Part shown: in pieces, positions 11,267 to 27,837 of the stretch | How the letters are laid out: each line of letters starts with the position of its first letter | Numbering within the stretch: position 1 is the first letter of the stretch | Assembly: GCF_018069625.1 (NCBI RefSeq) | Contig: NZ_CP072941.1 | Span: 1,860,001 to 1,924,000 of the forward strand | Direction: 5' to 3' | Length of the DNA: 64,000 nt | From: Streptomyces yatensis | GTDB taxonomy: Bacteria; Actinomycetota; Actinomycetes; Streptomycetales; Streptomycetaceae | Position numbers and translations under genes: made by a program | Notes under the pieces: generated by a model | The model's input: the letters and a program-made list of their open reading frames with translations, nothing else | What the model was told of the DNA's origin: nothing | Database searches by the model: none

Positions 11267-11335
11267 ATGGTGATGGAATGCGCCGCCGCTCCGCGCGGCC
11301 CTCTCCAGCGGTACGGACCCCGGCAGGCGCTGTGA
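11267..11335 (+). CDS. 22-residue upstream ORF coupled to the GT2 gene
   Basis: ATG 11267 follows a strong ribosome site (GGGGAGGAG) at a good distance and opens 22 codons rich in Ala, Arg and Pro. Its TGA overlaps the GTG start of the glycosyltransferase by four bases (GTGA). The best ribosome site in the area therefore serves this short frame, and the enzyme may be translated by termination-reinitiation. An alternative is that translation of the enzyme begins at ATG 11278 in the enzyme frame, which would make this ORF incidental. Confidence 0.4.
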   Translation: MVMECAAAPRGPLQRYGPRQAL

Positions 11336-12192
11336 CGACGCCAGCCGTCGGTGTCGTCGTCGCCACCCGCAATCGCGCCGGCACCCTCGCCACCGCCCTC
11401 GAACACCTCACGGCCCTGCCGGAACGGCCACCCGTCCTGGTGGTGGACAACGGTTCGACCGACCACACCCGCGCCATGGTCGCCGAGCGTTTCCCCGGAG
11501 TGGATCTCCTGGCCCATCCCGTCAACCGCGGCGCGTTGGCCCGCAACGATGGCGTACGTGCGCTGACCACCCCTTACATCGCCTTCAGCGACGACGACTC
11601 GTGGTGGCGGCACGGCGCGCTGAGTCGGGCGGCCCGTCTCCTCGACGCCCATCCCAGGCTCGGGCTGGTCACGGCACAGGTACGGGTGGGCCCCGAGGAG
11701 CGACCCGACCCGCTCAACGCGGTGCTTGCCGCCTCCCCGGTCGGCCGGGCGCCCGACCTGCCGGGACCGGAGGTCTTCGGTTTCCTCGCCTGCGCCGCCG
11801 TGGTGCGCCGCAGCGCTTTTCTCGACGCGGGGGGCTTCCATCCCCTGATCTTCTTCGGCGGAGAGGAAACCCTTCTCGCCTATGACCTCACCGCGCGCGG
11901 CTGGGGCGTTTCGTACTGCGCGGAGGTGGTGGCCCACCACAACCCGGCCCCGGCGCCCCGTCCTGGCCGCGACGCCGTGATGCGACGCAACGAGCTGATC
12001 GGCCACTGGCTGCGGCGCCCCCTCCCCCTCGCCTTCCGGAGCACCGCGCGGCTCCTTGCCGAGGCCGCGTGCGACCCGGAGGCGCGGCTCGCCCTCCAGG
12101 GGCTGCTCGCCCGGCTCCCGGCGGCGCTGCGGCAACGCCGCCCGCTGCCGCCGTGGGTGGAGGAGGCCGTCCGGCGGGTGTCCTCGCCCTGA
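11332..12192 (+). CDS. Family 2 glycosyltransferase
   Basis: A 286-residue GT-A fold inverting glycosyltransferase. VVVATRNRAGTL opens the nucleotide-binding fold, VVDNGSTD is the GT2 N-terminal motif, and FSDDDSWW contains the metal-binding DxD equivalent; GGEETLLAYDLTARGW holds the likely catalytic-base region. No C-terminal membrane helix is evident. GTG 11332 is chosen; ATG 11278 is the alternative. It is homologous over its whole length to the minus-strand enzyme at 25958-26854, and the two bracket the glycan locus. Acceptor and donor are unknown. Confidence 0.88.
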   Translation: MTTPAVGVVVATRNRAGTLATALEHLTALPERPPVLVVDNGSTDHTRAMVAERFPGVDLLAHPVNRGALARNDGVRALTTPYIAFSDDDSWWRHGALSRAARLLDAHPRLGLVTAQVRVGPEERPDPLNAVLAASPVGRAPDLPGPEVFGFLACAAVVRRSAFLDAGGFHPLIFFGGEETLLAYDLTARGWGVSYCAEVVAHHNPAPAPRPGRDAVMRRNELIGHWLRRPLPLAFRSTARLLAEAACDPEARLALQGLLARLPAALRQRRPLPPWVEEAVRRVSSP

Positions 12193-12194
12193 GG

Positions 12195-12376
12195 CCATGC
12201 CCTGGGGCCGTGCCCTGGGGCCGTGCCCTGGGGCCATGCCCTGGGGCCATGCCCTGGGGCCATGCCCTGGGGCCATGCCCTGGGGCCATGCCCTGACGCC
12301 ATGCCCTGACGCCATGCCCTGGGGCCATGCCCTGACGCCATGCCCTGGGGCCATGCCCTGGGGCCGTGTCCTGAGG
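12195..12376. repeat. Minisatellite: 14 tandem copies of a 13-bp unit
   Basis: Fourteen contiguous 13-bp units with consensus CCATGCCCTGGGG fill almost the whole space between the convergent GT2 and SDR genes. Variants are limited: G for A at position 3 (units 2, 3, 14), GACG endings (units 8, 9, 11) and a divergent last unit. Each unit junction contains GCCCTGGGGC, a small self-complementary hairpin. A degenerate fifteenth copy may underlie the last codons of the GT2 gene (12182-12194). Because 13 is not a multiple of 3, the array reads as a 13-residue repeat in every frame; I do not regard it as coding. Confidence 0.95.
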
Positions 12377-12388
12377 AGCCGGCAGGAT

Positions 12389-13210
12389 TCACCCCCGGCG
12401 CCAGTCCCCGCTCTCCAGGTGGGACCCGGCCATCGGCCCCATGCGGAGCATGCCACCGTCCACCGCCCAGGAGGCGCCGGTGACATAGCCGGCGTCCGGG
12501 CCCGCGAGGAAGGCGATCACGGCGGCGACCTCCCGGGCGTCCCCGGGCCGCCCGAGCGGGATTCCCGGCCGGTCCTGGCCGCGGACGTCCGTGTCCTCCT
12601 GGCCGGTCATCGGGGTGGCGATCTCGCCTGGTGCGACCGCGTTGACCCGGATCCCGTGTTCGGCCAGTTCCAGGGCCATCACCTGGGTGAGCAGGCCGAG
12701 CCCGCCCTTGGCCGCGCAGTAGGGTGCGGCGCCCACTCGCGGCTGGTGTTCGTGGACGCTGGTGACGTTGACGATCCGGCCGCCCCCGCCCTGGCGAATC
12801 ATCCGGCGGGCCGCGCGCTGTCCGCACAGGAACGGGCCGACCAGGTCGACGTCGAGGACCTGTTGCACGGTGGTGTGGTCGAGGTCGAGGAAGGGGGTGG
12901 CGGTTCCCGTGCCCGCGTTGTTGACGAGGACGTCGAGGCGTCCGAGGGCGTCGGCCAGCCGGTCGATGGCCTCGGCGGCCTCCGGGAGGCCGGTGAGGTC
13001 CATCCGCTCGATCACGGCCCGTCGGCCGTGTTCCCGCACCTCGGCCGCCGTCCGTTCGGCCCCTTCGTGGTCGGTGTTCCAGGTGATGCCGATGTCCATG
13101 CCGTCGTCGGCGAGCCGCACGGCTGTGGCACGGCCGATGCCGGAGTCCGCGCCGGTGACGACGGCGGCGCGGGCGAGGCGGCCGGAGCCGGTGGTGTCGC
13201 TGGGAGTCAT
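12389..13210 (-). CDS. SDR-family oxidoreductase
   Basis: A 273-residue classical short-chain dehydrogenase. The NAD(P)-binding TGADSGIG motif is at about residues 19-26, NNAG follows, and the catalytic tyrosine and lysine are in YCAAKGG; the cofactor-closing PGEIATPM and C-terminal VDGGM are also typical. Sequence style resembles the glucose 1-dehydrogenase-like group. Its ATG overlaps the stop of the GT9 gene (ATGA), making it the last gene of the heptose operon. It may adjust the oxidation state of a sugar, but substrate is not shown by the sequence. Confidence 0.9.
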   Translation of the reverse strand: MTPSDTTGSGRLARAAVVTGADSGIGRATAVRLADDGMDIGITWNTDHEGAERTAAEVREHGRRAVIERMDLTGLPEAAEAIDRLADALGRLDVLVNNAGTGTATPFLDLDHTTVQQVLDVDLVGPFLCGQRAARRMIRQGGGGRIVNVTSVHEHQPRVGAAPYCAAKGGLGLLTQVMALELAEHGIRVNAVAPGEIATPMTGQEDTDVRGQDRPGIPLGRPGDAREVAAVIAFLAGPDAGYVTGASWAVDGGMLRMGPMAGSHLESGDWRRG

Positions 13211-14244
13211 CCGGCGGCTCCGGTGGGGGTGGTCGGACGCGGACGGCGGGGCGCGGAGGCGGCCGGACGGGGAAGCCTGCCGACCGCCGCCAGGACATCG
13301 GCCACGCTGATGGCGAGCAGTCGTTCGTCGGGGACCCTGCCGTGCGCGTCACCCGGCCGGGGGGTGGCGTCGCTGCCGTACCAGAGCGCCTGGTGCAGAT
13401 CGCAGCGCGGTGGTCCCCACAGTCGGGGGGCCACCGGTCCGAAGAGGACGACGGAGGGAGTACCCAGGGCGGTCGCCAGATGTGCCAGGCCGGTGTCGCC
13501 CACGACCACGGCCCGGGCCCGGGCGACGAGTACGGCGAGGTCGGCGAACGGCACATCGGCGTCGCCGCCGAGCACGGCCGACCGAGGCAGCCCGGCGGCC
13601 CGGGCGACCTCATGGGCCAAGGGGGCCTCATCGGCGCCCGCGGTGACGACGACCCGGTGACCGGTCGCGGCGAGGGCCCGTCCCACCGCGGCGAAGCGCT
13701 CGGCGGGCCACCGGCGCGCGGCGGCGTCGGCGCCAGGATGCAGGACCACCGCTCCGGGCGCGGGCGAGCCGCTGCCCTCGGGGGCGGTGATCCGCCGGTC
13801 CCCCGGGTCGGCCGGGATGCCGTACCACAGGAGCAGCCGGCACCAGCGGACCCACTCGTGTTCGTCGTCGCGCCACAGCGGTCCGGGGACCTGGGGGGTG
13901 TCGGGGTGGGCGTAGGCCAGGGTGCGGCCCGGACGCAGGGCGCTCAGCAGACGGTGGCTGGGCGGCCCGTTCCCGTGGAGGTCCACGGCCACCTCCGGTG
14001 GCGGTCCGGTCCAGTCGATCCGGTGGGGGACGGCCCGGGCGGGAGCCGAGGTGGGGAGCAACCGGTCGATGGCCCCGGTCGCCGCCGCGGCCTCGGCCAG
14101 GCGGCCCGGTGCGGCCAGCAGCAGCTCGTAGCCGGGGTGGGAGCGCCGGAGTGCGCGGAGGGCCGGGACGGCCGTGAGCAGGTCGCCGAGGCCGAGGGCG
14201 CGCAGCACCAGCAGGCGGGGGCGGGGGCCCGCGGGGCGCGTCAT
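13207..14244 (-). CDS. Family 9 glycosyltransferase (heptosyltransferase-like)
   Basis: A 345-residue GT-B enzyme of the ADP-heptose:LPS heptosyltransferase family. The N-terminal LRALGLGDLLTAVPALRAL is the GT9 glycine loop; the C-terminal donor domain has HPGADAAARRWPAERF and GDTGLAHLATALGTPSV, the latter a GT9 hallmark. The start at ATG 14244 overlaps the HldE stop by four bases, and its own stop overlaps the SDR start. In Gram-negative bacteria these enzymes add heptose to lipid A core. Here, next to HldE and GmhA, the donor is probably the locally made nucleotide-heptose, and the acceptor must be something other than LPS. Confidence 0.9.
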   Translation of the reverse strand: MTRPAGPRPRLLVLRALGLGDLLTAVPALRALRRSHPGYELLLAAPGRLAEAAAATGAIDRLLPTSAPARAVPHRIDWTGPPPEVAVDLHGNGPPSHRLLSALRPGRTLAYAHPDTPQVPGPLWRDDEHEWVRWCRLLLWYGIPADPGDRRITAPEGSGSPAPGAVVLHPGADAAARRWPAERFAAVGRALAATGHRVVVTAGADEAPLAHEVARAAGLPRSAVLGGDADVPFADLAVLVARARAVVVGDTGLAHLATALGTPSVVLFGPVAPRLWGPPRCDLHQALWYGSDATPRPGDAHGRVPDERLLAISVADVLAAVGRLPRPAASAPRRPRPTTPTGAAG

Positions 14245-15674
14245 CGGCGGGTCCGCACCGGGGGCGGGGCCGGGCGGACGGTGGACCCGAGAGCCGCCCG
14301 GCGGGCGAGTTCGGTGGTGGACCGGCCGTCGAGATACGGCAGGACGAGGGCCTGTCCACCCCATTCGCGCAGCACGGCGGCCTCGGGCAAGGTGTCGGCA
14401 CTGTAGTCGCCGCCCTTGACCCAGACGTCCGGGCGCAGTCTGCGCAGCAGCGGCTCCGGGGTGTCCTCGTCGAAGACGGCGACGGCGTCGACGCAGCCCA
14501 GTCCGGACAGCACCCGGACCCGGTCCGCGACCGGATTGATCGGCCGGCCGGGGCCCTTCAGACGGGTCACGGAGGCGTCGGAGTTGACGCACACGATCAG
14601 GCAGTCTCCGGTGCGGCGGGCGTTCTGGAGCAGTCCGACGTGGCCGGCGTGCAGCAGGTCGAAACAGCCTCCGGCGGCGACGACGGTACCGCCCCGGGCA
14701 CGGACCGCCCCGGCCAGGTCGTAGGCGTCGTACGGGCGCCTGGGAGCCTCGTCATCGCTGAGGGCCTCCCCCGGCCGGAGACCACCGGCGCCGCCCGACG
14801 CCACGAAGGCGGCGGCTTCGGCGACGGCCAGCTGGACCGCCTCCTCCGGCAGCCCTCCGCCCGCCAGCACGCTCGCGGCGGTGGCGGCGAAGCAGTCTCC
14901 GGCGCCGCAGGGGTCGCCCTGGGCCCGGCGAACGACCGGAACGTACATGTGGTCGCCGCTGCGCGGGCGGGTGAGGATGGCACCGCGCTCCCCCAGGGTG
15001 ACGGCGACGGCCGCGGCGCCCCAGAGCTCACCGAGGCGGGTGCCGCGCGCTCCGTGGACGCGGAGGGGTCCCTGATCGTTCCTGGGGCCGCCGTCGGAGC
15101 CGAGGAGCAGCCGGGCCTCGGCGGCGTTGGGTGTGGCGAGCCGTACGCCGGGCACGGGCCGCTCACCGCGCGGGTGCGGGTCCCAGACCAGGGGTGCGGT
15201 GTGCGCCGCGTCGGCGAGGTGGCGGCGCAGCGCGCCCGCGGTGCCGTGGCCGTAATCGGCGACCAGGACGGCTCCGGCGTTCCGTAGGGCGGCGACGGTG
15301 GCCCTTCCAGGGCTTCCCGGCGTTCCGCCCCCTCGGTCGACGCGGACCAGGGGGCGGCCTCCGGCGCGGATCCTGGTCTTGACCGGGAGGGCGCCGTCCA
15401 GGGGCAGCTCGACCACGGTGACCAGGGAGCGCAGGGTTTCGCGGACGACCCGGCTCGCGGCGTCGTCGCCCAGCGCGGTGACGAGGACGACCTCGCGCCC
15501 GCCGCGGGCGGCGAGCAGAGCGGCGAGTCCGGCGCCGCCGGGGCGGCTGCGGTCCACGGTGACGTCGACGACGGGGGCCGGGGCGTCGGGGGCCAGGCGG
15601 GTGGCTTCGCCGTCGACGTCCTGGTCCAGCAGGGTGTCACCGACCACGACCAGGGGTCGCTGCGCGGCGCTCAT
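14241..15674 (-). CDS. hldE: Bifunctional heptose 7-phosphate kinase / heptose 1-phosphate adenylyltransferase
   Basis: A 477-residue two-domain enzyme of nucleotide-heptose synthesis. Residues 1-310 are a PfkB/ribokinase-type kinase with the catalytic GAGD at 257-260, phosphorylating heptose 7-phosphate at C1. Residues 330-477 are a cytidylyltransferase-like domain with GGCFDLLHAGH (HxGH at 342-345) and a late ISSTEL-like RSTTEL, transferring AMP to heptose 1-phosphate. Domain order and length match Gram-negative HldE (RfaE). It lies three bases after GmhA and overlaps the GT9 start. The intermediate bisphosphate needs the GmhB phosphatase, which is present upstream in the operon. Confidence 0.93.
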   Translation of the reverse strand: MSAAQRPLVVVGDTLLDQDVDGEATRLAPDAPAPVVDVTVDRSRPGGAGLAALLAARGGREVVLVTALGDDAASRVVRETLRSLVTVVELPLDGALPVKTRIRAGGRPLVRVDRGGGTPGSPGRATVAALRNAGAVLVADYGHGTAGALRRHLADAAHTAPLVWDPHPRGERPVPGVRLATPNAAEARLLLGSDGGPRNDQGPLRVHGARGTRLGELWGAAAVAVTLGERGAILTRPRSGDHMYVPVVRRAQGDPCGAGDCFAATAASVLAGGGLPEEAVQLAVAEAAAFVASGGAGGLRPGEALSDDEAPRRPYDAYDLAGAVRARGGTVVAAGGCFDLLHAGHVGLLQNARRTGDCLIVCVNSDASVTRLKGPGRPINPVADRVRVLSGLGCVDAVAVFDEDTPEPLLRRLRPDVWVKGGDYSADTLPEAAVLREWGGQALVLPYLDGRSTTELARRAALGSTVRPAPPPVRTRR

Positions 15675-15677
15675 GGG

Positions 15678-16415
15678 TCACCTCCGGTCGGTCGCACGGC
15701 TGGGGCGAGGGGCGAGGGATTCGGCGCGCGTGAGGTCGTAGCGCCGTGTGGTCACGGGGTCGGCGATGTCCGTGGCGAGGGACTCGTGGTCGAGGGACTC
15801 GTGGTCGAGGGTCTCGTGGTCGAGGGTCTCGTGCTCGTGGTCGAGGGTCTCGTGGTCGAAGGTCTCGCACAGCAGATGGAGGGCCACCAGGTGGGCCTCC
15901 TGGACGGTCGCCGTGGTGCCGGAGGCGATGGACAGCGTGTCGTGGGCGCGGAGGGTCAACGGGTTGGGGCGGGGACCGGTCATGGCCCAGACCCGCAGCC
16001 CGGCGGCGCGCCCGGTGTCGGCGGCGGCCAGCAGGTTGGGGCTGCGTCCGGAGGTGGACATCAGGACCAGCACATCGCCGGGTCTGCCGTGCGCGGCGAC
16101 CTGCCGGGCGTACAGCTCCTCGAAGCCGTAGTCGTTGCCGATGGCGGTGAGGCTGGAGGTGTCGGTGTGCAGGGCGATGGCCGAGTAGGCGGGGCGTTCG
16201 CGGCGGTAGCGGCCGACGAGTTCGGCGGTCAGGTGCTGGGCCTGGGCGGCACTGCCCCCGTTGCCCGCGGCGATGAGCCGGCCGCCGACAGGGAGGGTGG
16301 CGGCCAGGTGGCGGCCCCACGCGGTGATCTGTTCCAGGCCGTTGTCGCGCAGGTGCGCCACGGCGTCCTGGAGCGACTGACAGTGTGCCTGGGCGGCGCG
16401 CAGCGTGTCGGTCAT
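15678..16415 (-). CDS. gmhA: Phosphoheptose isomerase (SIS domain)
   Basis: A SIS-domain isomerase converting sedoheptulose 7-phosphate to D-glycero-D-manno-heptose 7-phosphate, first step of the pathway. The GmhA-type motifs AAGNGGSAAQAQHL, SLTAIGNDYGFE and LMSTSGRSPN are all present. The normal fold ends near LHLLCETF; beyond it is an unusual tail with a pentapeptide repeat, then a short extension. ATG 16415 gives the standard N-terminus MTDTLRAAQ; GTG 16487 is an alternative that would add 24 residues, and an AAGGAGG lies between the two. Other SIS proteins bind different sugar phosphates, but the HldE and GmhB neighbours settle the role. Confidence 0.9.
   Translation of the reverse strand: MTDTLRAAQAHCQSLQDAVAHLRDNGLEQITAWGRHLAATLPVGGRLIAAGNGGSAAQAQHLTAELVGRYRRERPAYSAIALHTDTSSLTAIGNDYGFEELYARQVAAHGRPGDVLVLMSTSGRSPNLLAAADTGRAAGLRVWAMTGPRPNPLTLRAHDTLSIASGTTATVQEAHLVALHLLCETFDHETLDHEHETLDHETLDHESLDHESLATDIADPVTTRRYDLTRAESLAPRPSRATDRR
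15781..15861 (-). repeat. 15-bp coding repeats in the gmhA 3' end
   Basis: About five tandem 15-bp units (consensus, plus strand, GTCTCGTGGTCGAGG) with one 21-bp variant unit. In the gmhA frame they encode the pentapeptide LDHE(T/S), giving an acidic, His-rich stretch of roughly 25 residues. Unit length keeps the frame, so copy number can change without breaking the gene. Confidence 0.85.
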
Positions 16416-16512
16416 GGCTGTCCGGGCCGGTAGATCGCCGGTGGCGGGTTCGGCCCGCACCTCCTTCCCGTTGAGCGGGGCGGCCACCCGCGGGTCGCCG
16501 CCGTCGGGGCGG

Positions 16513-17754
16513 TCAGGCCGCCCTGGGCGGTCCGGCCGTGGCCAGCAGATCGCGGTAGGCGCTTTCGGTGGCGGCGGCGACCCTGTCCCAGCTGTAGTGG
16601 GCCAGGACGCGCCGTCGGCCGGCTCGGCCGCAGGCGGCGGCCACCCCGGGGGCGGCGAGGAGCCCGGCGACCGCCTCGGCCAGAGCTACGGGGTCCCGCG
16701 GCGGTACCAGCCGGCCCGTGGCGGGATCGACGACCGTGTCGCGCTGACCGCCCACGGCGGTGGCCACCACGGGAGTTCCGCAGCTCATGGCCTCGAGGGG
16801 CACGATGCCAAATGGCTCGTAGTCGGCGGGGCACAGGACGAGATCGGCGGCGCGCAGCAGGGCAGGCACCTGTTCGGGCGGCAGGCCGCCGGTGAATCGG
16901 ACCCTGTCGGGGACCCCCGCCCGGCGGGCCAGGGCCCTCAGACGGCGTATCTCCGGGTCATGGTCCGCCTGGGCGGGCGGCGGCCCGCCCACGATCAGCA
17001 GGACGGCGTCCGGCAGCAGGCGGAGGGCGGCGAGGGAGACGGCCGCCCCTTTCCGGGGCACCAGCCGGCCGATCTGCACCAGCAGGGCCCGGTCCGCGGG
17101 CCGGCGCGCGGTGGGCCCGCCGGGGGTGAAGAGCCGTGGGTCCACGCCGCAGGGTACGACCGTGATCCGGTCCGGGCTCAGGCCCATGACGGCCAGTTCG
17201 GCGACTTCGTCGCGGCAGGTGGCGATGACGCGGTCACAGCCCTCGCCGACCTTCGTCTCCCACGCGACGCGGTCCGGTGGGCTGGTGTCCGCGTCCTTCT
17301 GATGGCGCCTCTTGACGGTCCCGAGCGCGTGGTAGGTGTGCGCGAGCCGCAGTCCGAGGGCACGGGCGGCCTGCAGCGATGCCACGCCGGACATCCAGAA
17401 GTGGGAGTGGACGACGTCGGGCGGGGCGATCCGCCACTCGTGTTCCAGGTGGTTTCCGAAGTCGGGCATGTACGGCAGCAGGTCGTCCTTCGACAGAGCC
17501 CGGGCCGGACCCGCGGGCACATGCCGCACCTCGACGCCCGCGCGCATCGGCACCGTGGCCGGCAGGTCCGGCGCGTCGCGGCGGGTGTAGACCCGGACCC
17601 GGTGGCCGCGGTCGGCGAGGGCCCCGGCGAGGCGGGCGACGTGCACGTTCTGGCCCCCGGCGTCCACTCCGCCGAGCGCGGCGAGTGGGCTCGCGTGCTC
17701 CGAGACGAGCGCGATGTCCAGTGCCGCGCGGGGGCGGTCGTACTGCGGTGTCAT
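16513..17754 (-). CDS. Family 4 glycosyltransferase
   Basis: A 413-residue retaining GT-B enzyme. The N-terminal domain contains LGGVDAGGQNVHVARLAGAL, the GGxN-type loop of the GT4 group that includes MshA and sucrose synthase-like proteins, and DVVHSHFWMSG. The C-terminal donor domain has VPCGVDPRLF and the E-x7-E motif within EPFGIVPLEAMSCGTPVVAT. Its ATG overlaps the upstream glycosyltransferase stop (ATGA). It has no signal or membrane helix, so it works on the cytoplasmic side. The donor sugar is not deducible. Confidence 0.92.
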   Translation of the reverse strand: MTPQYDRPRAALDIALVSEHASPLAALGGVDAGGQNVHVARLAGALADRGHRVRVYTRRDAPDLPATVPMRAGVEVRHVPAGPARALSKDDLLPYMPDFGNHLEHEWRIAPPDVVHSHFWMSGVASLQAARALGLRLAHTYHALGTVKRRHQKDADTSPPDRVAWETKVGEGCDRVIATCRDEVAELAVMGLSPDRITVVPCGVDPRLFTPGGPTARRPADRALLVQIGRLVPRKGAAVSLAALRLLPDAVLLIVGGPPPAQADHDPEIRRLRALARRAGVPDRVRFTGGLPPEQVPALLRAADLVLCPADYEPFGIVPLEAMSCGTPVVATAVGGQRDTVVDPATGRLVPPRDPVALAEAVAGLLAAPGVAAACGRAGRRRVLAHYSWDRVAAATESAYRDLLATAGPPRAA

Positions 17755-18716
17755 CGGGTCACCTCCGCTATCAGCCGCTCCCAGTCGTCGAGGAAACGCT
17801 TGAGTCCGTACCGGTCGAGAGCGGCCCGGCGGGCCCGTGCCCCGTCCTCGGCCGCGGCGTCCGGGTCGTGCAGGTAGGTACGCGCCGCGTGAGCGAGGAC
17901 CTCGGGGCGGGTGGAGAGCACTCCCGCGCCGTCCGGTACGGCCTCGACCACCTCGGTGGTGGCCAGGGCCACGACGGGCATGCCCAGGTGCATGGCCTCC
18001 AGCAGGGACAGCCCGAGCGAGGTCCAGCGCACGGGGTGCAGATACAGACGGCGGCGTGCCATGGCGGCGTGCAACTCGGCCTGGGGCAGCTCCCAGGTGC
18101 GGCAGAGACCGCCGGGCAGGGCGAGGTGGCGGGCGAGTCCTCGGGTGGCCATGCCGAAGACGTCGAGCGGAGCGGCCCGGCTGAGTGCGGGCAGCAGGTC
18201 GGTGCCGGTGTGGCGGCCCCGCCGTATCGGTTCGTTGACCACGACGACGGCGCGTTCGTACTCCCCCGTGTAGCGGTGTCCGGGGTCCATGACGCCGTGC
18301 TCGACGACGGCGGTGGGGGCGCGTCCGTTGTCCCAGAAGAGCCGGTTGAAGTGGGTGACGTGGACCAGGATGAGGTCGTCGCGGTCAGCGCACGGGTGGC
18401 GGGTGCCGGGAACGTCTCCGTCCGGGGCGTTGTGCTCGACGTAGACGGCGGGCACCTCGCGTCCGGGGCGGCGGCCTCCGAGCCAGCGGCGGGCGAGCCC
18501 GGGCTCGTGGGGCCGCTGGAGGACGACCAGGTCCACCGGGGTCTGGGTCAGCTCTTCCGGAGTGACCTCGGTGACCGACTCGGGCCACGGGAAGGTCCGC
18601 GCCCGGCCGCGGCCGTCGGGACCGCGGCCGGGGAGGACGGGCACCAGATAGCGGTGGGGGCCTTGTACGAAGGCCGTGGTCCATGAGCCGTGCACATGCC
18701 ACAGAAGGATGTTCAT
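17751..18716 (-). CDS. Glycosyltransferase (GT4-like)
   Basis: A 321-residue glycosyltransferase with a weaker signature than its neighbour. MNILLWHVHGSWTTAFVQG opens the protein, EHNAPDGDVPGTRHP and HVTHFNRLFWDNG lie in the acceptor half, and a GT4-type LGLSLLEAMHLGMPVVALAT occurs near residue 250. ATG 18716 overlaps the GT9 stop by four bases; the frame is open upstream but within the GT9 gene. Related proteins occur beside HldE in other actinomycete loci as far as I recall, but I cannot name a characterised function. Confidence 0.85.
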   Translation of the reverse strand: MNILLWHVHGSWTTAFVQGPHRYLVPVLPGRGPDGRGRARTFPWPESVTEVTPEELTQTPVDLVVLQRPHEPGLARRWLGGRRPGREVPAVYVEHNAPDGDVPGTRHPCADRDDLILVHVTHFNRLFWDNGRAPTAVVEHGVMDPGHRYTGEYERAVVVVNEPIRRGRHTGTDLLPALSRAAPLDVFGMATRGLARHLALPGGLCRTWELPQAELHAAMARRRLYLHPVRWTSLGLSLLEAMHLGMPVVALATTEVVEAVPDGAGVLSTRPEVLAHAARTYLHDPDAAAEDGARARRAALDRYGLKRFLDDWERLIAEVTR

Positions 18717-19771
18717 GCCGTCGCCTCCAGGGGTCGGTCGTCGGCCCGGCCAGTGGCGATCAGCGCGTCCACGGCGGCGAGGACCTCGGCGTCGGTCACG
18801 GAGTCCAGGCAGGGGTGGCCCGCCACGGGACAGACGCGGGCGCGGCTGCCCGCGCAGAGTGCGTCCTGACGCCCCAGCAGCCGGTGGGCAACGCGGTAGG
18901 GGGCCCAGCGTTCGGCGGGCACCACGGGTGCGAAGAGGCAGACGACCGGGGTGCCCACGGCGCTCGCCAGATGGCACGGGCCGGTGTTACCGGTGACCAC
19001 CGCGTCGGCGCCCGCGAGGACCCCGGCGAGTTCGCCGAATTCCGTCCGCCCGCCGAGGTCCAGGGCGGTTCCGTCGGCGACGTGCGCCGTCAGTTCCTTC
19101 TCCGCCGGCCCGCCGGTGACCACCACCCGGTGGCCGGCCGCCCCCAAGGCGGCCACCGCCCGCGCGGCGCGGGCCGGACTCCAGGCGCGGGCGGGAACGG
19201 CGGCGCCGGGGTGGACGACCACATAGGGATCGGTCCCGGTGAGCGGGGCGGTGTCGGGAAGGGAGGTCACGCCCAGCCGCCCCGTGTCGCCGGGCGGCAG
19301 GGCGAACCCGGCCGCCTCGGCCAGCTCCAGCGCGGCGCGCGCCTCGTGGCGGTGCGCCGCGCGCCGGTGCCGCAGGTCCAGCAGGGTGCCCGGATAGTGC
19401 TCGCTGTCCGCCGCGACCCAGGGGATCTGGGCCAGCTTCAGCAACAGGGCGGCCGGGAGGGGACTTTGATGGTGGGACGTGAGGATCAGGGCGCGGTCGA
19501 AACGTCGGGCGGCCAGCGAAGCGATCAGGGCTTCGGTGGTCTCACGCCGTACCGGCGGGGCGTCGAAGCCCACCCATGGCGCATCGTGGACCAGCACCTC
19601 GTCGACTCCGGGGAGGAGCCGGGCGGCGGGCTCGCCGAGCGGACCACACAGGATCCCGGTGTGGCGGGAGGCGGCGGCGACCGCACGCACGGCCGGCCCG
19701 GCCAGTAGGACGTCACCGGCGCTGTCGAGCCGTACGACCAGGGTGCGCGGCCCGGCGCCCGGCGGGTTCAA
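18713..19771 (-). CDS. Second family 9 glycosyltransferase (heptosyltransferase-like)
   Basis: A 352-residue GT9 enzyme, distinct from the one at 13207-14244. VVRLDSAGDVLLAGPAVRAV is the N-terminal glycine loop, VVVHPGAAVPARAWSPARA is the donor-site strand, and GNTGPCHLASAVGTPVV the GT9 hallmark. A cysteine-containing C-terminal segment (CAGSRARVCPVAGHPC) resembles that of LPS heptosyltransferase II relatives. It overlaps both neighbours by four bases, so it is the second gene of the operon. Two GT9 enzymes suggest at least two heptosyl additions or two acceptors. Confidence 0.9.
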   Translation of the reverse strand: MNPPGAGPRTLVVRLDSAGDVLLAGPAVRAVAAASRHTGILCGPLGEPAARLLPGVDEVLVHDAPWVGFDAPPVRRETTEALIASLAARRFDRALILTSHHQSPLPAALLLKLAQIPWVAADSEHYPGTLLDLRHRRAAHRHEARAALELAEAAGFALPPGDTGRLGVTSLPDTAPLTGTDPYVVVHPGAAVPARAWSPARAARAVAALGAAGHRVVVTGGPAEKELTAHVADGTALDLGGRTEFGELAGVLAGADAVVTGNTGPCHLASAVGTPVVCLFAPVVPAERWAPYRVAHRLLGRQDALCAGSRARVCPVAGHPCLDSVTDAEVLAAVDALIATGRADDRPLEATA

Positions 19772-20373: not shown

Positions 20374-20428
20374 GGACGACACCTCGGGGGCGTCCACGGT
20401 GGACACGGGTCTCGAGTAACCCGGACAT

Positions 20429-20460
20429 ATCGTTATCAAACGATGCGAAGTGCTACGCAT
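20429..20460. promoter_or_regulatory. Paired inverted repeats in the space between gmhB and GT2
   Basis: An AT-rich perfect repeat ATCGTT-ATCA-AACGAT (20429-20444) is followed by ATGCG-N8-CGCAT (20443-20460). They lie upstream of the heptose operon and at the end of the preceding minus-strand GT2 gene (stop at 20453). The first looks like an operator for a small dimeric repressor near the gmhB promoter; the second could be a weak terminator. Both roles are inferred. Confidence 0.35.
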
Positions 20461-21496
20461 GGCCCACCGCCCCCGAAGGCGCCGCCGTGCGGTCGAGGCG
20501 GGCGGCCGAGCGGTGGCGTATCAGGCCCGCCACCCGGTGTGCGGTGGCCACGGGCGGGATCAGGGCACTGGTCAGGGCCATCGTCACGATCTCGGCCCGG
20601 GTGCGCGGCCCCGGCAGAACGCGAGCCAGGGCGAATTCGGCGGTGCCGGCCAGCCACAGCGCCGCACCGCCCGCGGCCGGCCACCGGCTGCCGGTCGCGG
20701 CGCCGATCACGGCGGCGGCCCCGGCCGCGGTGATGGCGAGATGGCGGCGCAGACGGCCGCGCGGAGCACCTGCCCGGGCCCACCAGTCGCGCCCGTGGAC
20801 CCTGGCCATCAGCGCGTCGTCCGCGTTCCCCGCCTGGGTGCGGACCGACACCCAGCGGTCTGCCGGGCGCACGGGATGGGTCGTCCGGCGCGAGCCCGTG
20901 GACAGCCCCCACCCGGCCGCCACGATACGCAGCGCGAGGTCGGCGTCCTCGCGGAAGGCGCGGGGGAACCGTTCGTCGAAGCCGCCGACGGCCTCCAGCG
21001 CGGCCCGCCGGTACGCCATGTCGGCGGTGATCCAGCGGGCGGTGGCGAGCCCCGCGGTCATGCGCTCCCAGTCCGTGGGCCTGCGGTCGTCCGGCAGCGG
21101 TACGACGATCCGGCCCTGGCTGCCCGCGACGCCGGGCCCGGCCGCCGCCAGATCGGCGGCAAGGTCGTCCGCCCAGGTGGGGCCCGGGACGACATCGTCG
21201 TCGAGGAAGACGGTCCAGGGTTCCGGGGCGGCAAGCCAGCCGATGTTGCGCGCCGCGGCGGGCCCGGCGGCACACCCGGGCGTGATCTCCACCAGGGGCG
21301 CCAGTTCGTCGGGGACCGCGACGGGCAGCGCCGTGCAGTCGTCCAGCGGCCGGTCGTCGACCAGGACGATGCGCCGCGGCGCCGGCCCTTTGGCGTCGGC
21401 GAGGGCGCGCAGGGTCACGGCCAGGCTCGGCCGGCCCAGCGTGGGGATGACCACGGCGTACTCGGGTGCGGCGGTCCGCTCTGCCGCTTCCGTCAT
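20453..21496 (-). CDS. Family 2 glycosyltransferase with C-terminal membrane segments
   Basis: A 347-residue GT2 enzyme. The GT-A core has YAVVIPTLGRPSL, FLDDDVVPGP (the DxD equivalent) and a GGFDERFPRAFREDADLALR acceptor-region motif. After about residue 260, two or three hydrophobic segments (HLAITAAGAAAVIGAAT, GGAALWLAGTAEFALA, VTMALTSALIPPVA) suggest membrane attachment, as in enzymes that glycosylate lipid-linked sugars. ATG 21496 follows a GAGGGAGGAG ribosome site. It is the last of three same-strand genes (epimerase, carbamoyltransferase, this). Confidence 0.88.
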   Translation of the reverse strand: MTEAAERTAAPEYAVVIPTLGRPSLAVTLRALADAKGPAPRRIVLVDDRPLDDCTALPVAVPDELAPLVEITPGCAAGPAAARNIGWLAAPEPWTVFLDDDVVPGPTWADDLAADLAAAGPGVAGSQGRIVVPLPDDRRPTDWERMTAGLATARWITADMAYRRAALEAVGGFDERFPRAFREDADLALRIVAAGWGLSTGSRRTTHPVRPADRWVSVRTQAGNADDALMARVHGRDWWARAGAPRGRLRRHLAITAAGAAAVIGAATGSRWPAAGGAALWLAGTAEFALARVLPGPRTRAEIVTMALTSALIPPVATAHRVAGLIRHRSAARLDRTAAPSGAVGHA

Positions 21497-21543
21497 GGCG
21501 GGCTCCTCCCTCGACAAGTGGTCCGGTGGCGCGGGCAGCCCGC

Positions 21544-23220
21544 TCAGGTCCCCTTCCGCGGTGCCGTATCGGTCCGGCCGCCCGCGAACAGCGCACCGCG
21601 GCGGATCACGAACGGCCCGATGGCCAGCAGGTCGACGGGGGCGGAGCCGAAGCACTCCAGGGCGTCACGCGGATCGTCGACCATGGGGCGGCCGGAGGTG
21701 TTGAGACTGGTGTTGACGACCACGGGCAGCCCGGTGCGCCGTTCGAACGCGGTGAGCATGCGGGCCACCAGCGGTTCGGCCGCGGCGTCGACGGTCTGGA
21801 TGCGGGCCGTACCGTCCACGTGCACCACGGCCGGGATGCGATCACGCCACTGCGGGGCGACACCGTGCACGAAGAGCATGTAGGGGCTGGGCAACGGGCC
21901 GTCGAAGATCTCGGGCGCGCGCTCGGCCAGCACCATCGGAGCGACCGGCCGGAACTGCTCCCGTCCCTTGACGTCGTTGAGCCGCTCCAGGTTTCCGGAC
22001 CTGCCGGGGTGGGCGAAGAGCGAACGGTGGCCGAGCGCCCGCGGCCCGTACTCGGAACGCCCCTGGAACCAGGCGACGATCGCGTCGTCCGCGAGCGCCT
22101 CGGCGACCGTCTCGGCGACATCGGCCGGACGTTCGAAGGGCACGGCCGCCGTTTTCAGCCACGCCTCCACTTCGGCGTCCGACCAATGGCGTCCCAGGTC
22201 CGCGCCGGTCATCGGCCCCGGCCGGTCGCCGGCCTCGGCGGAGAGCAGCAGCGCACCGCCCAGCGCGGTGCCCGCGTCACCGGCGGCGGGCTGGACCCAG
22301 ACCCGGTCGAACTGCCCCTCTTGGGCGATGCGCGAGTTGGCGACGCAGTTGAGCGCCACTCCCCCGGCCAGGGTCAGCACCCGGTCGTGGGTACGTCCGT
22401 GCAGCCAGCGGACCAGGTCCAGCAGCGTCTCCTCCAGACACGCCTGGACGCTCGCGGCAAGGTCGGCGTGCGCCTGTGACCACGCCTGGCCGGAGCGGAG
22501 GGCGGGGCACAGACCGGCCCACGGCACACCCGTGGCGTGGAAGCCGCCGTCACCGGTGGCGAACACGTACCGGCGCAGCTCGGGGAGCATCCGGGGGGTG
22601 CCGTAGGAGGCGAGGGCCATGACCTTGTACTCGTCGGAGGAGCGCAGGAAGCCCAGGTGTTCGGTGAGTTCCTCGTACACCAGCCCCAGGGAGTGCGGCA
22701 GTTCCTGCCCGTACAGCGGCTCCAGCCGGTCGCCGGTGCGGCGGGCCGCCAGGTGGGAGGTGGCTTCGCCCCGTCCGTCGAGGACGAGGACGGAGCTGGT
22801 CTCGGCGCCGGGCGCGGCGAGGGCGCAGGAGGCGGCGTGGGCCATGTGGTGGGGGACGAAGCGCACGGCGTCCGGGTCGAGCCCGGGAAGGGCGGTGTGG
22901 AGGAAGCCGGGGGCCTGGCGGGCGTAGGTGAGCCGGAGGTGGTCCCAGGGGTCGTCCAGGCCCATGGTCGCGGCGGGCCGGGCCAGGGCCGGGTCGAAGG
23001 AGTAGGCGACGGCGTCCAGGTCCTGGGGGCGCAGGCCCGCCTGCTCCAGGCACCACACGGCCGCCTTCTCGGGGAGTTCCCAGGCGGAGAAGGGAACCGG
23101 GCGCTTGCCGTGCTTGCGCCGCGAGAACCGTTCCTCCTCCGCGGCGGCGACGGTGCGTCCGTCGACGACGAGGGCGGCGGCCGGGTCGTGGAAGAGGGCG
23201 TTGATGCCGAGGATGCGCAT
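21544..23220 (-). CDS. NodU/CmcH-family carbamoyltransferase
   Basis: A 558-residue enzyme transferring the carbamoyl group of carbamoyl phosphate to a hydroxyl, usually of a sugar. The N-terminal Kae1-like half has HHMAHAASCA, which supplies metal ligands, and VLVLDGRGEATS; the C-terminal half has SEYGPRALGHRSL and NTSLNTSGRPMVD, standard for the family. Length is normal. In NodU, TobZ and bleomycin BlmD relatives the product is a carbamoylated sugar. Here, beside nucleotide-sugar and heptose genes, a carbamoylated heptose or hexose is the natural guess. Confidence 0.93.
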   Translation of the reverse strand: MRILGINALFHDPAAALVVDGRTVAAAEEERFSRRKHGKRPVPFSAWELPEKAAVWCLEQAGLRPQDLDAVAYSFDPALARPAATMGLDDPWDHLRLTYARQAPGFLHTALPGLDPDAVRFVPHHMAHAASCALAAPGAETSSVLVLDGRGEATSHLAARRTGDRLEPLYGQELPHSLGLVYEELTEHLGFLRSSDEYKVMALASYGTPRMLPELRRYVFATGDGGFHATGVPWAGLCPALRSGQAWSQAHADLAASVQACLEETLLDLVRWLHGRTHDRVLTLAGGVALNCVANSRIAQEGQFDRVWVQPAAGDAGTALGGALLLSAEAGDRPGPMTGADLGRHWSDAEVEAWLKTAAVPFERPADVAETVAEALADDAIVAWFQGRSEYGPRALGHRSLFAHPGRSGNLERLNDVKGREQFRPVAPMVLAERAPEIFDGPLPSPYMLFVHGVAPQWRDRIPAVVHVDGTARIQTVDAAAEPLVARMLTAFERRTGLPVVVNTSLNTSGRPMVDDPRDALECFGSAPVDLLAIGPFVIRRGALFAGGRTDTAPRKGT

Positions 23221-23289
23221 GGGCGGGGCCTTTCCGTGGCTCCGGGGCCGCTGGGGAAACGGGTACGGGGCGGGATACGGGGCGGGGGC

Positions 23290-24264: not shown

Positions 24265-24378
24265 GGCCCTTCCCTTCCCTTCACGCATGGGACCCCCGGA
24301 TACCCGCATGAAGGGGACGCAATCAGGACATGGCGGCTACGCGGACCGCTCGGCCCACCGCTTCCCCGTCCGCACCGG

Positions 24379-25761
24379 TCACGGGACGGGGGCCGGCTCC
24401 TCGGCGTGCGGGGCCTGCCGCGCCGAGGGGGGTGCGGCCCCGGGCACATGGGCGGTTACGGACTTCGCTCCGGAACCGGGCGCCGCGCGGCGGGTGCGGC
24501 ACAGCGCGCCCGCCCCGATCACCGACGCGATGAGCAGCCCGCCGAGGACGAGGGCGAGGCGCGGCCCCGCCCACTCCATGAGCAGTCCGAGCAACGGCGG
24601 GCCCGCCAGGCCCCAGCCCGTCTGCGCGGTGCGCCACACACCCAGTACCCGTCCGCGCATCCCCGGCGGCGGATCGGTTTGCAGCACCGTGGTCCCGGCC
24701 GTGTCGGAGACCGACTCCACGACGGCCATCGGCGCCGTGACCACCAGCAGCACCACCAGGGTGGGGGAGAGCCCGGCGACCACCTGCAAGAGCGCCCCGA
24801 CCGCGGCGAACGCGCCGACCAACCGTACGGACGGCCGCTGCATGCGCCCGGCCAGGACGGCGCCCAGGATGCCGCCGACGGCCAGCACGGTGGCGACGGT
24901 CCCGAACTGCTCGTCGCTCCCCGCCAGCGGTCCCGTGACCAGTACCGCCAGCGTCAGCCCGTAGTTGCGTCCGAACATGGCACTCACCGCGGTGACCACC
25001 GTGAGGGCGACCAGCCGTGGCCTGCTCATGAAGTAGGCCAGCCCCTCACGGGCGGCGGCCACCGGCCGTCGCGCCCGCCGGTCGGGTTCGGCCGGGGCGT
25101 GTCCGGCCACCGGGCGGAGGAAGGGGATGACGGCGGCAACGAAGAGGAAGGACAGCCCGTTGGCCGCGTAGGCCGCGGAGGTGCCGAGCGCCCCCACCGC
25201 GACCCCGGCGCAGGCCACCCCGATGAGCCGTCCCGCGCTGTGCACCACCGAACCCAGGGCGATCGCCGAGGACACGTCCCGGACGGGTACCAGTTCGTTG
25301 CCGAGCAGGGCACACGCCGGCCCCTCCACGGTGGCCACCAGCCCGGTCAGTGCGGAAAGGACCATGAGCGCGGCGACGTCGAGCAGGTCGAACGCGACCA
25401 GGGCCGCCGTGGTGAAGGCGATGACCGCCAGCGCCACCTGGCTGACGGCCGCCGTGAGCTTGCGGGGCCAGGCATCCACCGCCGCTCCCCCGGCCAGCCC
25501 GAGCAGCAGTCCCGGAGCCGCCTGCACCGCCAGCGAGACACCTGTGGTGGCGGCGGATCCGGTGATGTGCAGCACCAGCAGGTTCTGCACGGTCAGCTGC
25601 ATCCACGTACCGACGTTCGACACCAGGTTCGCCGCCGACCACCACCGCATGCCGCCGTGCCGGAGGCAACGCCAAGCGGAGCGCTCGCTCCGCCCGGACG
25701 AGGGTGGTGCGGGGCGTTCGGGAGATCGAGGCGCGGGTATCGAAGGCAAGGAGGAGGTCAC
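24379..25761 (-). CDS. MFS transporter (EntS-like exporter group)
   Basis: A 460-residue membrane protein with about twelve hydrophobic segments between residues 40 and 425. It starts with LVSNVGTWMQLTVQNLLVLH, characteristic of the MFS_3/enterobactin exporter-like branch, and has a basic loop RRARRPVAAAREGL before transmembrane segment 7. The C-terminal 35 residues are hydrophilic and Pro/Ala-rich. Members export siderophores, drugs or small glycosides. Its place inside the glycan locus, same strand, makes export of a small carbamoylated or heptosylated product worth considering; transport direction is inferred. Confidence 0.88.
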   Translation of the reverse strand: MTSSLPSIPAPRSPERPAPPSSGRSERSAWRCLRHGGMRWWSAANLVSNVGTWMQLTVQNLLVLHITGSAATTGVSLAVQAAPGLLLGLAGGAAVDAWPRKLTAAVSQVALAVIAFTTAALVAFDLLDVAALMVLSALTGLVATVEGPACALLGNELVPVRDVSSAIALGSVVHSAGRLIGVACAGVAVGALGTSAAYAANGLSFLFVAAVIPFLRPVAGHAPAEPDRRARRPVAAAREGLAYFMSRPRLVALTVVTAVSAMFGRNYGLTLAVLVTGPLAGSDEQFGTVATVLAVGGILGAVLAGRMQRPSVRLVGAFAAVGALLQVVAGLSPTLVVLLVVTAPMAVVESVSDTAGTTVLQTDPPPGMRGRVLGVWRTAQTGWGLAGPPLLGLLMEWAGPRLALVLGGLLIASVIGAGALCRTRRAAPGSGAKSVTAHVPGAAPPSARQAPHAEEPAPVP

Positions 25762-25957
25762 GCGGGCAGGCCGAGGGGGAGGACGGATAAGGGAGCCCCG
25801 TCAGGGGGCGGCTGGGCACGGCAACACTGCTACGGCCCAGCGACCGTCCATCATCACAGACGAGTCCTCCGGGCGAAGACCCCGCCGCCGGTGGCCTTAC
25901 TCACACCGGAAGGCACAGGCCGGGCCCGGAACCAGGAGGCCCGCCCGAAGGCGCTCC

Positions 25958-26854
25958 TCAGCTCACGTACCGCCGCGCCGTCGAGGTCCGCTGTGTCTCG
26001 TCCAGCAGCCGGAGCCGGTCCTCGATCTCCGCGGGGACGACCCGCCGCAGCGCCAGCGTCCGGGGTGCACCTGCCGCCGCCTGGAGGAAGCCGCGCAGAC
26101 TCGCCGAGTCCCGGGGGACCGTGCGGGCCAGGAACAGGGTGCGGCGCACGGCGGCGGGAAGCGGTCGGCGCAGCCAGGTGAACCACAGGGTGTTGCGCAG
26201 CCCCCGTACGCGCCTGGCCACGGGGTCCCGAACCACCGAGGGCGCGTGGTGAGCCGTCATCTCCGGAATGTAGGCGAGCCACCAGCCGCGCACCGCCAGA
26301 TCGGCGGCGAGCAGCTCCTCTTCGCCGTCCAGCCACAGCCGCGGCGAGAAACCGCCGACACTACGGAACGCATCGGTCCGCACACAGGTCCCGGCGGCGA
26401 CGAAGGAGCCGAGGGCCGGGCCCGGCAGCCACGGCGGCCCCGGGACGGGTGAGGAGCGCAGCTCCGCCACGATGGGGTCCTCGGTGCCGGCGGGCTCCAC
26501 GAGGATGCGGGCCGTCACCGTGGCGAGGAGCGGATGGCGGTCCAACCGGTCCACGGCGATCTCCAAGGAGCCGGGCTCCCACCACGAGTCGTCGTCGCAG
26601 AAGGCGGTGTACGGGCTGCGCACCTCCCTGATGGCCACGTTCCTGCCGAGTGCCCCGAGGTTGCGGCTGAGGCGCAGCAGCCGTACGCCGCCGTGCAGAC
26701 GGGCTACCGCGTCGGCGGTCCCGTCGGTGGAACCGTTGTCGGCCACGATCACGGGCGGCCGTTCGGGCAGCTCCGCCAGCCGGTCGAGCGTATGCAGCAG
26801 CTCCGCGCGCCGGTTGCGGGTGATGATGACCACGGTGATGCGATCGCCGGTCAT
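25958..26854 (-). CDS. Family 2 glycosyltransferase, paralogue of the 11332 enzyme
   Basis: A 298-residue GT-A enzyme with VVIITRNRRAELL, VADNGSTDGT and FCDDDSWWEPG, followed by LDGEEELLAADLAVRGWW. It aligns along its full length with the plus-strand enzyme at 11332-12192, sharing the unusual NGSTD/DDDSWW and WLRRPLPLA-type segments, so the pair arose by duplication. ATG 26854 has a GCGAGGAGCG ribosome site and overlaps the pyruvyltransferase stop by four bases. No transmembrane segment is clear. Donor and acceptor are unknown. Confidence 0.88.
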   Translation of the reverse strand: MTGDRITVVIITRNRRAELLHTLDRLAELPERPPVIVADNGSTDGTADAVARLHGGVRLLRLSRNLGALGRNVAIREVRSPYTAFCDDDSWWEPGSLEIAVDRLDRHPLLATVTARILVEPAGTEDPIVAELRSSPVPGPPWLPGPALGSFVAAGTCVRTDAFRSVGGFSPRLWLDGEEELLAADLAVRGWWLAYIPEMTAHHAPSVVRDPVARRVRGLRNTLWFTWLRRPLPAAVRRTLFLARTVPRDSASLRGFLQAAAGAPRTLALRRVVPAEIEDRLRLLDETQRTSTARRYVS

Positions 26855-27837
26855 GGCCCGCTCCTCGCGCCGCTCGTACGCTCTCGTCGGCCCTCGGGCC
26901 ACGCGACCGTCGAGAGCACCCGCGCCAGCCCCGCCGTCCCGTCGTCCCCGGTGTCATGGAGACGCGCGCCCAGGAACTCCTCCCGGCGGCGCTCGGCGAG
27001 ATTCCGGCCGTCGCCCAGGCACCAGGACCACCACCGGTCGAGTTCGGCGCGGACGCACTGCCCGGCGCCCAGCGTCGCGGGCCAGGAGAGGGCCCGCGCC
27101 TGCGCCGATACCTTCGCCCCACCGGCGACGGGGTCGACGGCCAGCGCCGGAACACCCGCCCGCAGGGCCAGTACGAGCCCGTGCAGACGGTCGGTGACCA
27201 CCAGGTCCAGCCGGCTCACCACCGACTCGAACTGCTCCGCCGTCGTACACAGCCGCCAGTCGTGCGCGTCGAGCCGCGTGGTCAGCTCCAGACATGCACA
27301 GTCCTTGGCCGCCAGCCACCGGGTCAGCGTGGCTGCCACCTCGGGGTGGCGGCGCGCGCCCGCGTACTCCCCCTGCCCGTGGGTGAGGACCACCCCGACG
27401 ACCGGGGCACCGGGGCCGGTGGGAGCGGCGGCGGCCAGGTCCCGTACCGGACGGACACCGCCGGGAGCGTCACGGGGCAGGACGTGGTGGAAGCCGGTGA
27501 CGGCCGGGGCGGAGCCGTCGATCACGGACGTGCCGACGGCGATCCGCACACAGGAGGGAAAGCTCCGGTGCAGTTCCTCGACCTGGGGCCCGTGCGCGGG
27601 GCCGCAGAGGAAGACCAGATGGGTATAGCGGTGTCCGGCCGCCTCGGACAGGTGCAGGGCGCCGGGCCGGTAGCCCGGACTCCAGGCCACGTCGTACGGG
27701 ATGCGGAGGTGGTCCAGGCAGGCTCGGACCCGGCGCAGCGCGAGCGCGTCGCCCGCGGTGACCTCACCGTCCAGGAAGCTGAACCAGCCGGTGAGCAACA
27801 CTCTCCCGGGCTTCGCCGCCTCGTGCTCGATGGCCAT
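26851..27837 (-). CDS. Polysaccharide pyruvyltransferase-family protein
   Basis: A 328-residue protein of the polysaccharide pyruvyltransferase family (CsaB/WcaK-like). The diagnostic C-terminal motif is VVTDRLHGLVLALRAGVPAL, with the family histidine. The N-terminal half (LLTGWFSFLDGEVTAGDALA) has the GT-B-like first domain. It would move pyruvate from phosphoenolpyruvate onto a sugar as a ketal, adding negative charge to a wall or extracellular polymer. ATG 27837 follows GGGAGG; an earlier ATG at 27885 is possible. It is coupled to the GT2 gene downstream. Confidence 0.85.
   Translation of the reverse strand: MAIEHEAAKPGRVLLTGWFSFLDGEVTAGDALALRRVRACLDHLRIPYDVAWSPGYRPGALHLSEAAGHRYTHLVFLCGPAHGPQVEELHRSFPSCVRIAVGTSVIDGSAPAVTGFHHVLPRDAPGGVRPVRDLAAAAPTGPGAPVVGVVLTHGQGEYAGARRHPEVAATLTRWLAAKDCACLELTTRLDAHDWRLCTTAEQFESVVSRLDLVVTDRLHGLVLALRAGVPALAVDPVAGGAKVSAQARALSWPATLGAGQCVRAELDRWWSWCLGDGRNLAERRREEFLGARLHDTGDDGTAGLARVLSTVAWPEGRRERTSGARSGP

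Follow-up and report, generated by a model that had tools for sequence, protein, structure and literature searches.

The cwg operon of Streptomyces coelicolor (SCO6179-6190) was reportedly described by Hong et al. in 2002, a paper that we reached through those citing it. The passages cited here describe it as a putative operon for a cell wall glycan, regulated by sigma-E and induced by vancomycin, and print a sigma-E promoter sequence 147 bp from the cwgA start codon (PMC6767563). Others annotate cwgH as a putative phosphoheptose isomerase (PMC5839063) and sco6183 (cwgE) as a putative heptosyl transferase (PMC5882110). Of ten papers listed (out of 15) in a search of the open-licence literature, none has cwg together with a word beginning with "heptose," though cwg papers do contain "phosphoheptose" and "heptosyl." Here, we describe a rearranged locus of the cwg kind in a 64,000-nucleotide stretch of Streptomyces yatensis (contig NZ_CP072941.1, bases 1860001-1924000 of a single-contig 10.36 Mb genome), which we call the window. 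The locus probably directs the synthesis of a carbamoylated D,D-heptose glycan or glycolipid of the cell envelope.

Heptose and its carbamoylation are also known from other systems. In Pseudomonas, the carbamoyl group of the inner-core heptose is attributed to WapO, which the cited text lists as a 7-carbamoyltransferase (PMC8005017). In septacidin and hygromycin B, heptose is described as coming from sedoheptulose 7-phosphate (S7P) through an ADP-heptose precursor (Tang 2018, as reported in PMC10221265).

The locus is an ortholog of the cwg gene set

We assigned gene identities by hidden Markov model (HMM) searches of the window proteins, using Pfam (PF), TIGR, and NF profiles with curated cut-offs. 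Fourteen genes occupy the minus strand between 27885 and 12389, and one further glycosyltransferase lies on the plus strand (10894-12192). Our starting point for the comparison was S. coelicolor SCO6179-6190, which we took to carry similar genes. The printed cwg promoter was found exactly in one of 392 Streptomyces genomes (G246), and with one or two mismatches in five others. In the G246 stretch (L122), this promoter stands 147 bases ahead of the UXS-like frame, and the sco6178 promoter, likewise known from print, has an exact match there too. Because both promoters match and the spacing is 147 bp, G246 is S. coelicolor or a very close relative. Each of twelve window genes has its own counterpart in L122 (56-76% identity). 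By this sequence comparison, the window locus is orthologous to the cwg genes of S. coelicolor as a set but is not the same operon. The genes are as follows (percentages are identities to L122; GT2, GT4, and GT9 are glycosyltransferase families).

26851-27885, minus: PyrT, divergent PS_pyruv_trans-family protein; likely start 27837 or 27885; PF04230 32.6 bits
25958-26902, minus: GT2a, cwgL counterpart; likely start 26854; PF00535 79 bits; 70%
24379-25761, minus: MFS_3 exporter-like protein of the major facilitator superfamily (MFS), outside the twelve cwg genes; PF05977 88 bits
23290-24309, minus: UXS (UDP-glucuronate decarboxylase-like), cwgA counterpart; NAD-epimerase/dehydratase; human UXS1 327 bits; 62%
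21544-23220, minus: O-carbamoyltransferase (TobZ/NodU family), cwgB counterpart; PF16861, PF02543; novobiocin carbamoyltransferase 297 bits; 76%
20453-21655, minus: GT2b, cwgC counterpart; likely start 21496; PF00535 36 bits; 56%
19768-20460, minus: GmhB-like HAD-IIIA phosphatase, cwgD counterpart; start uncertain; 3l8h 74 bits, GmhB 4pnh 64 bits
18713-19771, minus: GT9b, heptosyltransferase family, cwgE counterpart; PF01075 86 bits; 68%
17751-18977, minus: GT4b, cwgF counterpart; likely start 18716; PF00534 42 bits, weaker than GT4a; 69%
16513-17754, minus: GT4a, MshA-like, cwgG counterpart; PF00534 134 bits; TIGR03449 247 bits, below the cut-off of 462.5
15678-16487, minus: GmhA, SIS-type sedoheptulose-7-phosphate isomerase, cwgH counterpart; 2xbl 140 bits
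14241-15674, minus: HldE, heptose-7-phosphate kinase/heptose-1-phosphate nucleotidyltransferase, cwgI counterpart; C-terminal YLDGRSTT; TIGR02199 above cut-off
13207-14244, minus: GT9a, heptosyltransferase family, cwgJ counterpart; PF01075 76 bits; WaaF 1psw 56 bits; HMM family match placed in 13207-14592
12389-13210, minus: accessory short-chain dehydrogenase/reductase (SDR) oxidoreductase; NF009384 400 bits, above the cut-off of 264
10894-12192, plus: GT2c, cwgK counterpart, inverted in the window; homology from about 11302; PF00535 77 bits; 64%

L122 runs UXS, carbamoyltransferase, GT2b, GmhB, GT9b, GT4b, GT4a, GmhA, HldE, GT9a, GT2c, and GT2a, which we equate with cwgA-L, and the printed label of cwgE as a heptosyl transferase coincides with the position of GT9b on this map. 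Ten core genes (UXS through GT9a) have the same order and direction in the window. However, cwgL (GT2a) has moved upstream, cwgK (GT2c) is inverted, and MFS, upstream PyrT, and SDR genes are added. PyrT also adjoins the operon in L122, but on the opposite strand, and no MFS counterpart was matched in the 20 kb of L122. The full cwg structure of twelve genes in a single direction and order is not found in the window, where only ten are collinear. The closest relative of the locus (L127, 86-99% identity) has the same layout, and L128 has a similar one, with GT2a downstream and no detected PyrT or SDR. The window locus is a further case of the known cwg kind with a rearranged layout.

An earlier sequence-only reading of the window had listed GmhA, HldE, GmhB, two GT9, GT4, and three GT2 enzymes, a carbamoyltransferase, a UXS-like enzyme, and an MFS exporter, and the HMM searches bear this list out. 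It missed the orthology to cwg and did not name the SDR at 12389-13210.

The window encodes a predicted heptose route, with no HldD above cut-off

GmhA, HldE, GmhB, and GT9 enzymes of the WaaC/WaaF family also belong to the Gram-negative ADP-heptose pathway, and in the window they keep the residues that we take to be catalytic in the E. coli GmhA, HldE, and GmhB. GmhA H61, E65, Q172, and H180 are kept in the window protein and in at least 97% of 93 orthologs. The same holds for HldE D264 and the HxGH motif (102 orthologs; a GAGD motif is also present) and for GmhB D11, D13, C92, H94, C107, and C109 (80 orthologs). The 13 best PDB matches of GmhA are all named phosphoheptose isomerase, and HldE scores 187 bits with TIGR02199 (cut-off, 181.5). 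These results support the earlier claim of a complete gene set from S7P to nucleoside diphosphate (NDP)-heptose in a Gram-positive bacterium.

The route differs from the Gram-negative one in its HldE, which is only 35% identical to that of E. coli, and in having no HldD above the cut-off. The genome has one HldE-domain match. No HldD match exceeded the cut-off anywhere in the 10.36 Mb genome; 12 fell below it, the best at 107 bits against 274.6. This agrees with the sequence-only reading, which saw no HldD and proposed D,D-heptose as the likely donor, a proposal that our results support. A lipopolysaccharide (LPS) acceptor is not expected in such a cell. The same reading allowed that the UXS-like enzyme might epimerize the heptose, but its closest solved relatives are UXS enzymes. 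It keeps YxxxK and the HldD residues Y140 and K144, whereas K178, for which we presume a role in HldD, is Asp in the window enzyme and in 78 of 78 aligned orthologs. We therefore rejected it as an HldD.

The motif (F/L)XXGRSTT is described in the cited passages as a hallmark of enzymes that make CDP- and UDP-heptose as well (PMC11573728, PMC11461863). In the C-terminal YLDGRSTT of HldE, the residue after Gly is Arg in at least 80 of 103 sequences and His in 7; it was not found in 8 and not shown in 8. Because of this Arg, HldE may use CTP or UTP too, so that its predicted product is NDP-D,D-heptose with ADP and possibly also CDP or UDP. Since the first motif position is Tyr here, nucleotide promiscuity is only a prediction.

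GT9a keeps the equivalents of WaaC D13, E222, D261, and H266, and both window GT9 enzymes have Arg in place of K192. The pyruvyltransferase-family assignment of PyrT, also made earlier, holds to the extent of a PF04230 match over a 38-residue C-terminal stretch (cut-off, 25.3 bits), which 23 of 23 aligned homologs share. The match to a Pvg1 profile is weak (E = 0.17). For a predicted model (pLDDT 78.7, pTM 0.54), the best PDB fold match is the yeast pyruvyltransferase Pvg1p (E = 1.3e-6), with a template modeling (TM) score of 0.29, and many GT-B glycosyltransferases score close behind. Because of that low score and these near matches, PyrT is a candidate pyruvyltransferase only. Pyruvylation of the product, suggested earlier as a possibility, has the weak family match and the low-scoring fold match as its basis. 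A PHROGs search with PyrT and two neighbours returned nothing informative.

The core genes recur together in Streptomyces and beyond

We scanned for HldE and retained the best 80 of 449 relatives, a sample that for this reason leans to close relatives. The search for this gene set across Streptomyces, proposed earlier, showed that the block recurs, whole or in part, in these 80 loci, beyond what chance would give; a few short contigs display just two or three genes. Among the 61 loci of at least 21 kb, with 45% identity as the threshold for counting a gene, UXS, carbamoyltransferase, GT4a, and GmhA were each present in 61 (HldE also, by construction). The others were GT4b (56), GT2b (53), GT9a (50), GT9b (49), GmhB (47), MFS (41, 37 of them on the other strand), GT2c (32), GT2a (23), PyrT (20), and SDR (9). 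All ten core genes occurred in 42 of the 61, and accessory genes shuffle among loci.

Eight loci seemed short of GT9 and GmhB. We searched five of these genomes (L055, L067, and L079 were left out) and found both genes in all five, so true absence of GmhB and GT9 was rejected for them. In one of the five (L050), the genes just lie next to each other. In the other four (G777-G780), GmhB, GT9b, GT4b, and GT9a are grouped on a contig that differs in length from the one with HldE, joined in three by GT2b, GT2c, GT2a, and PyrT. With both contigs summed, four genomes have the ten core genes and three have twelve. Because both halves of the split set are kept, they appear to form one pathway, of which PyrT is likely a member.

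HldE matches (E up to 1e-3) occurred in 137 of 199 Streptomyces genomes, many of them short, 31-38% identical, and to the nucleotidyltransferase domain alone. At 50% identity or more there were 78, some of them fragments (our own reading of the list, a 53-residue match in G187 not counted). GT9 (PF01075) was present in 74 of the 78 genomes with HldE versus 11 of the 121 without (odds ratio, 185; Fisher p = 3e-37, uncorrected for kinship and from lists typed by hand).

Pfam searches with 20 representatives of recurrent unlabelled neighbours found catalase, GCS2 ligase, topoisomerase IB, DoxX, UDP-glucose dehydrogenase, SDR, and others. No family was found for five representatives; judging by position, four of these (L084, L124, L098, and L061) face cassette genes on the other strand and resemble frames read in reverse. 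In 10 of 83 loci, all ten from Streptomyces (e.g., L089:2753-3889), a GCS2 (glutamate-cysteine-ligase-family) gene lies close to the cassette.

HldE matches at E up to 1e-30 occurred in 51 of 396 Actinomycetota genomes and 31 of 236 genera, including the window genome and four congeners. We picked 20 loci outside Streptomyces by hand, mostly top-scoring ones (G700, G620, G465, and G590, of similar score, were left out); 12 are from another class of the same phylum. By our own count, GmhA, GT4a, GmhB, and GT9b are present in all 20 (HldE also, by construction), GT4b in 19, GT9a in 18 (absent or at 29% identity in two), GT2b and carbamoyltransferase in 17 each, and UXS in 6. Gene order varies in about six. 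In four of the six loci with UXS, a UDP-glucose dehydrogenase gene is close by, which fits a supply of UDP-xylose.

A carbamoylated heptose glycan is the probable product

We propose that GmhA would act on S7P and that HldE would then phosphorylate at C1. The GmhB-like phosphatase would take off the 7-phosphate, and the second HldE domain would form NDP-D,D-heptose, which one or both GT9 enzymes may pass to a growing oligosaccharide. The TobZ-type enzyme would O-carbamoylate a sugar, perhaps the heptose, as is held for WapO. UXS would provide UDP-xylose, the GT4 and GT2 enzymes would attach further sugars, and the MFS protein or machinery encoded elsewhere would export the product. By analogy, the nearest precedent that we found for a carbamoyltransferase with two heptosyltransferases is the Pseudomonas WapO system. 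The window likewise has two putative heptosyltransferases and a carbamoyltransferase, the comparison with WapO being by published description, but the Pseudomonas system builds Gram-negative LPS core. A carbamoylated glycan, as the sequence-only reading had it, is a plausible product. Its proposed envelope location comes from the sigma-E regulation and vancomycin induction of the S. coelicolor operon, and nothing in the window itself indicates it.

In favour of this proposal we count the orthology to cwg and the printed names of cwgE and cwgH, the conserved catalytic residues, the constant company of UXS, carbamoyltransferase, GT4a, and GmhA with HldE, the split set of G777-G780, the co-occurrence of HldE with GT9, the UDP-glucose dehydrogenase genes beside UXS, and the carbamoyl-heptose precedent. 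Several observations weigh against this proposal, in which reactions, product, and acceptor are all putative. GmhA (NF010546, 166 bits), the HldE kinase domain (TIGR02198, 106 bits), and the GmhB-like protein (NF006506, 100 bits) score below the curated cut-offs of 276, 345, and 178, respectively, and in GT9b the position of WaaC D261 is Asn in all 83 orthologs. No flippase, polymerase, or LytR-CpsA-Psr (LCP) gene is among the families found in the cassette. One genome (G027, locus L208) keeps GT2b-GmhB-GT9b-GT4b-GT9a-GT2c-GT2a and PyrT, with no HldE match and a GmhA-like match of only 30%. Finally, a strict sigma-E-type promoter (AAC-N16..18-CGTC) was rejected for the window, with no match on the minus strand at 24309-28480, ahead of the locus.

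The G027 half-set could reflect recent loss or use of another donor. Ahead of the window locus, one relaxed sigma-E-type match lies inside a DUF2795 frame. Upstream of UXS, a sigma-E-type motif occurred in 8 of 73 loci versus 2 of 73 in a reversed-sequence control (L086 left out). Therefore, the motif is not general in the cwg family. L125 (G136) keeps the promoter with one mismatch and matches only GT2b, GT4a, and a 40-residue GmhB-like piece, so the cwg operon also decays. A block upstream of the MFS gene (25762-25957) looks conserved by eye in the window, L127, and L128 and is a possible promoter of unassigned type.

In a variant of the envelope proposal, LCP proteins would attach the product, which would be a polymer of repeating units, and the genes for its polymerase and flippase would lie outside the locus. 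The LCP genes sco3044 and sco5358 share the sigma-E regulon with cwg in the published passages, which speaks for this variant. However, no polymerase, flippase, or ABC exporter was among the 20 neighbour representatives described above (Pfam; crude gene calls, rarer neighbours excluded), five of which had no family, and we consider the variant possible but doubtful.

The locus might instead make a secreted, MFS-exported small molecule that is heptosylated and carbamoylated. The MFS gene in 41 of 61 loci, the shuffling of accessory genes as in biosynthetic clusters, the absence of any transmembrane segment from four of the seven glycosyltransferases in a crude hydropathy count, and the heptose natural products described for Streptomyces in the passages cited would fit. 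Against this, HMM searches of the block found no polyketide synthase, nonribosomal peptide synthetase, or nucleoside gene among its families. HldE at 50% identity or more is in 78 of 199 Streptomyces genomes (six belonging to another locus type), and the set also occurs outside the class. Moreover, the S. coelicolor operon is, as cited, sigma-E regulated and vancomycin induced, and L122 has no match to the MFS gene. We therefore judge a natural product unlikely. Recruitment of the enzymes to another sugar with no heptose made, as the sequence-only reading suggests for bleomycin-type loci, would suit the subthreshold scores and the Asn of GT9b, but three pathway enzymes occurring together with catalytic residues kept, and GmhA matches that are all phosphoheptose isomerases, make it improbable.

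Other heptose loci and their relation to cwg

Septacidin and hygromycin B resemble the proposed pathway in their S7P-derived heptose, compared at the level of pathway description. The septacidin-type analogy drawn earlier fits the window locus less well: Streptomyces also has separate heptose loci in which the cwg glycosyltransferases have no close counterparts. Six GmhA-HldE loci (L201-L206), from the four HldE genomes without GT9 (G038, G166, G173, and G188) and from two of the 74 with it (G060 and G110), have no such counterpart above 31%. Among ten neighbours from three of them are an AMP-binding enzyme, a P450, luciferase-like monooxygenases, an ABC-2 transporter, and a carbamoyltransferase of a second kind. 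Neighbours of this sort look like those of natural-product clusters, and the six loci are possibly uncharacterised heptose ones.

In a tree of 52 HldE sequences, L201-L206 form a clade (0.94) sister to the Streptomyces cwg clade (pair, 0.914). This pair nests inside the actinobacterial cwg-type spread, in which support for the deeper nodes is low in part (0.27-0.92). L207 (35% HldE), the seventh locus of this type, is basal with L170, whose stretch holds two HldE copies. The position of L201-L206 hints that natural-product heptose genes may derive from the glycan pathway.

Other features of the window

A DnaK-like gene is split over two frames at 42131-44061 (minus strand), the HSP70 profile matching at positions 1-195 within 43264-44061 and at 200-591 within 42131-43468. 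This is a real frame break or a sequencing error; GrpE, DnaJ, Clp ATPase, HSP20, and thioredoxin genes are near. At 54138-62531 (minus strand), heparinase-II/III-like, GH38 alpha-mannosidase, and DUF2264 proteins are encoded consecutively, perhaps as a glycan degradation cluster.

Implications

Tentatively, and with more doubt than for the product itself, we suggest that a carbamoylated D,D-heptose oligosaccharide is conserved in the envelope of actinobacteria from more than one class, where it would be a chemical counterpart, in Gram-positives, of the inner core of LPS, and that natural-product heptose enzymes of actinomycetes branched from this older glycan pathway. Because the core set, which combines a complete heptose route with a carbamoyltransferase, extends beyond Streptomyces, the question of its product becomes a direct chemical test. 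If the GRSTT-type enzyme makes several heptose nucleotides in bacteria of this kind, these innate immune agonists would have a wider range of known sources.

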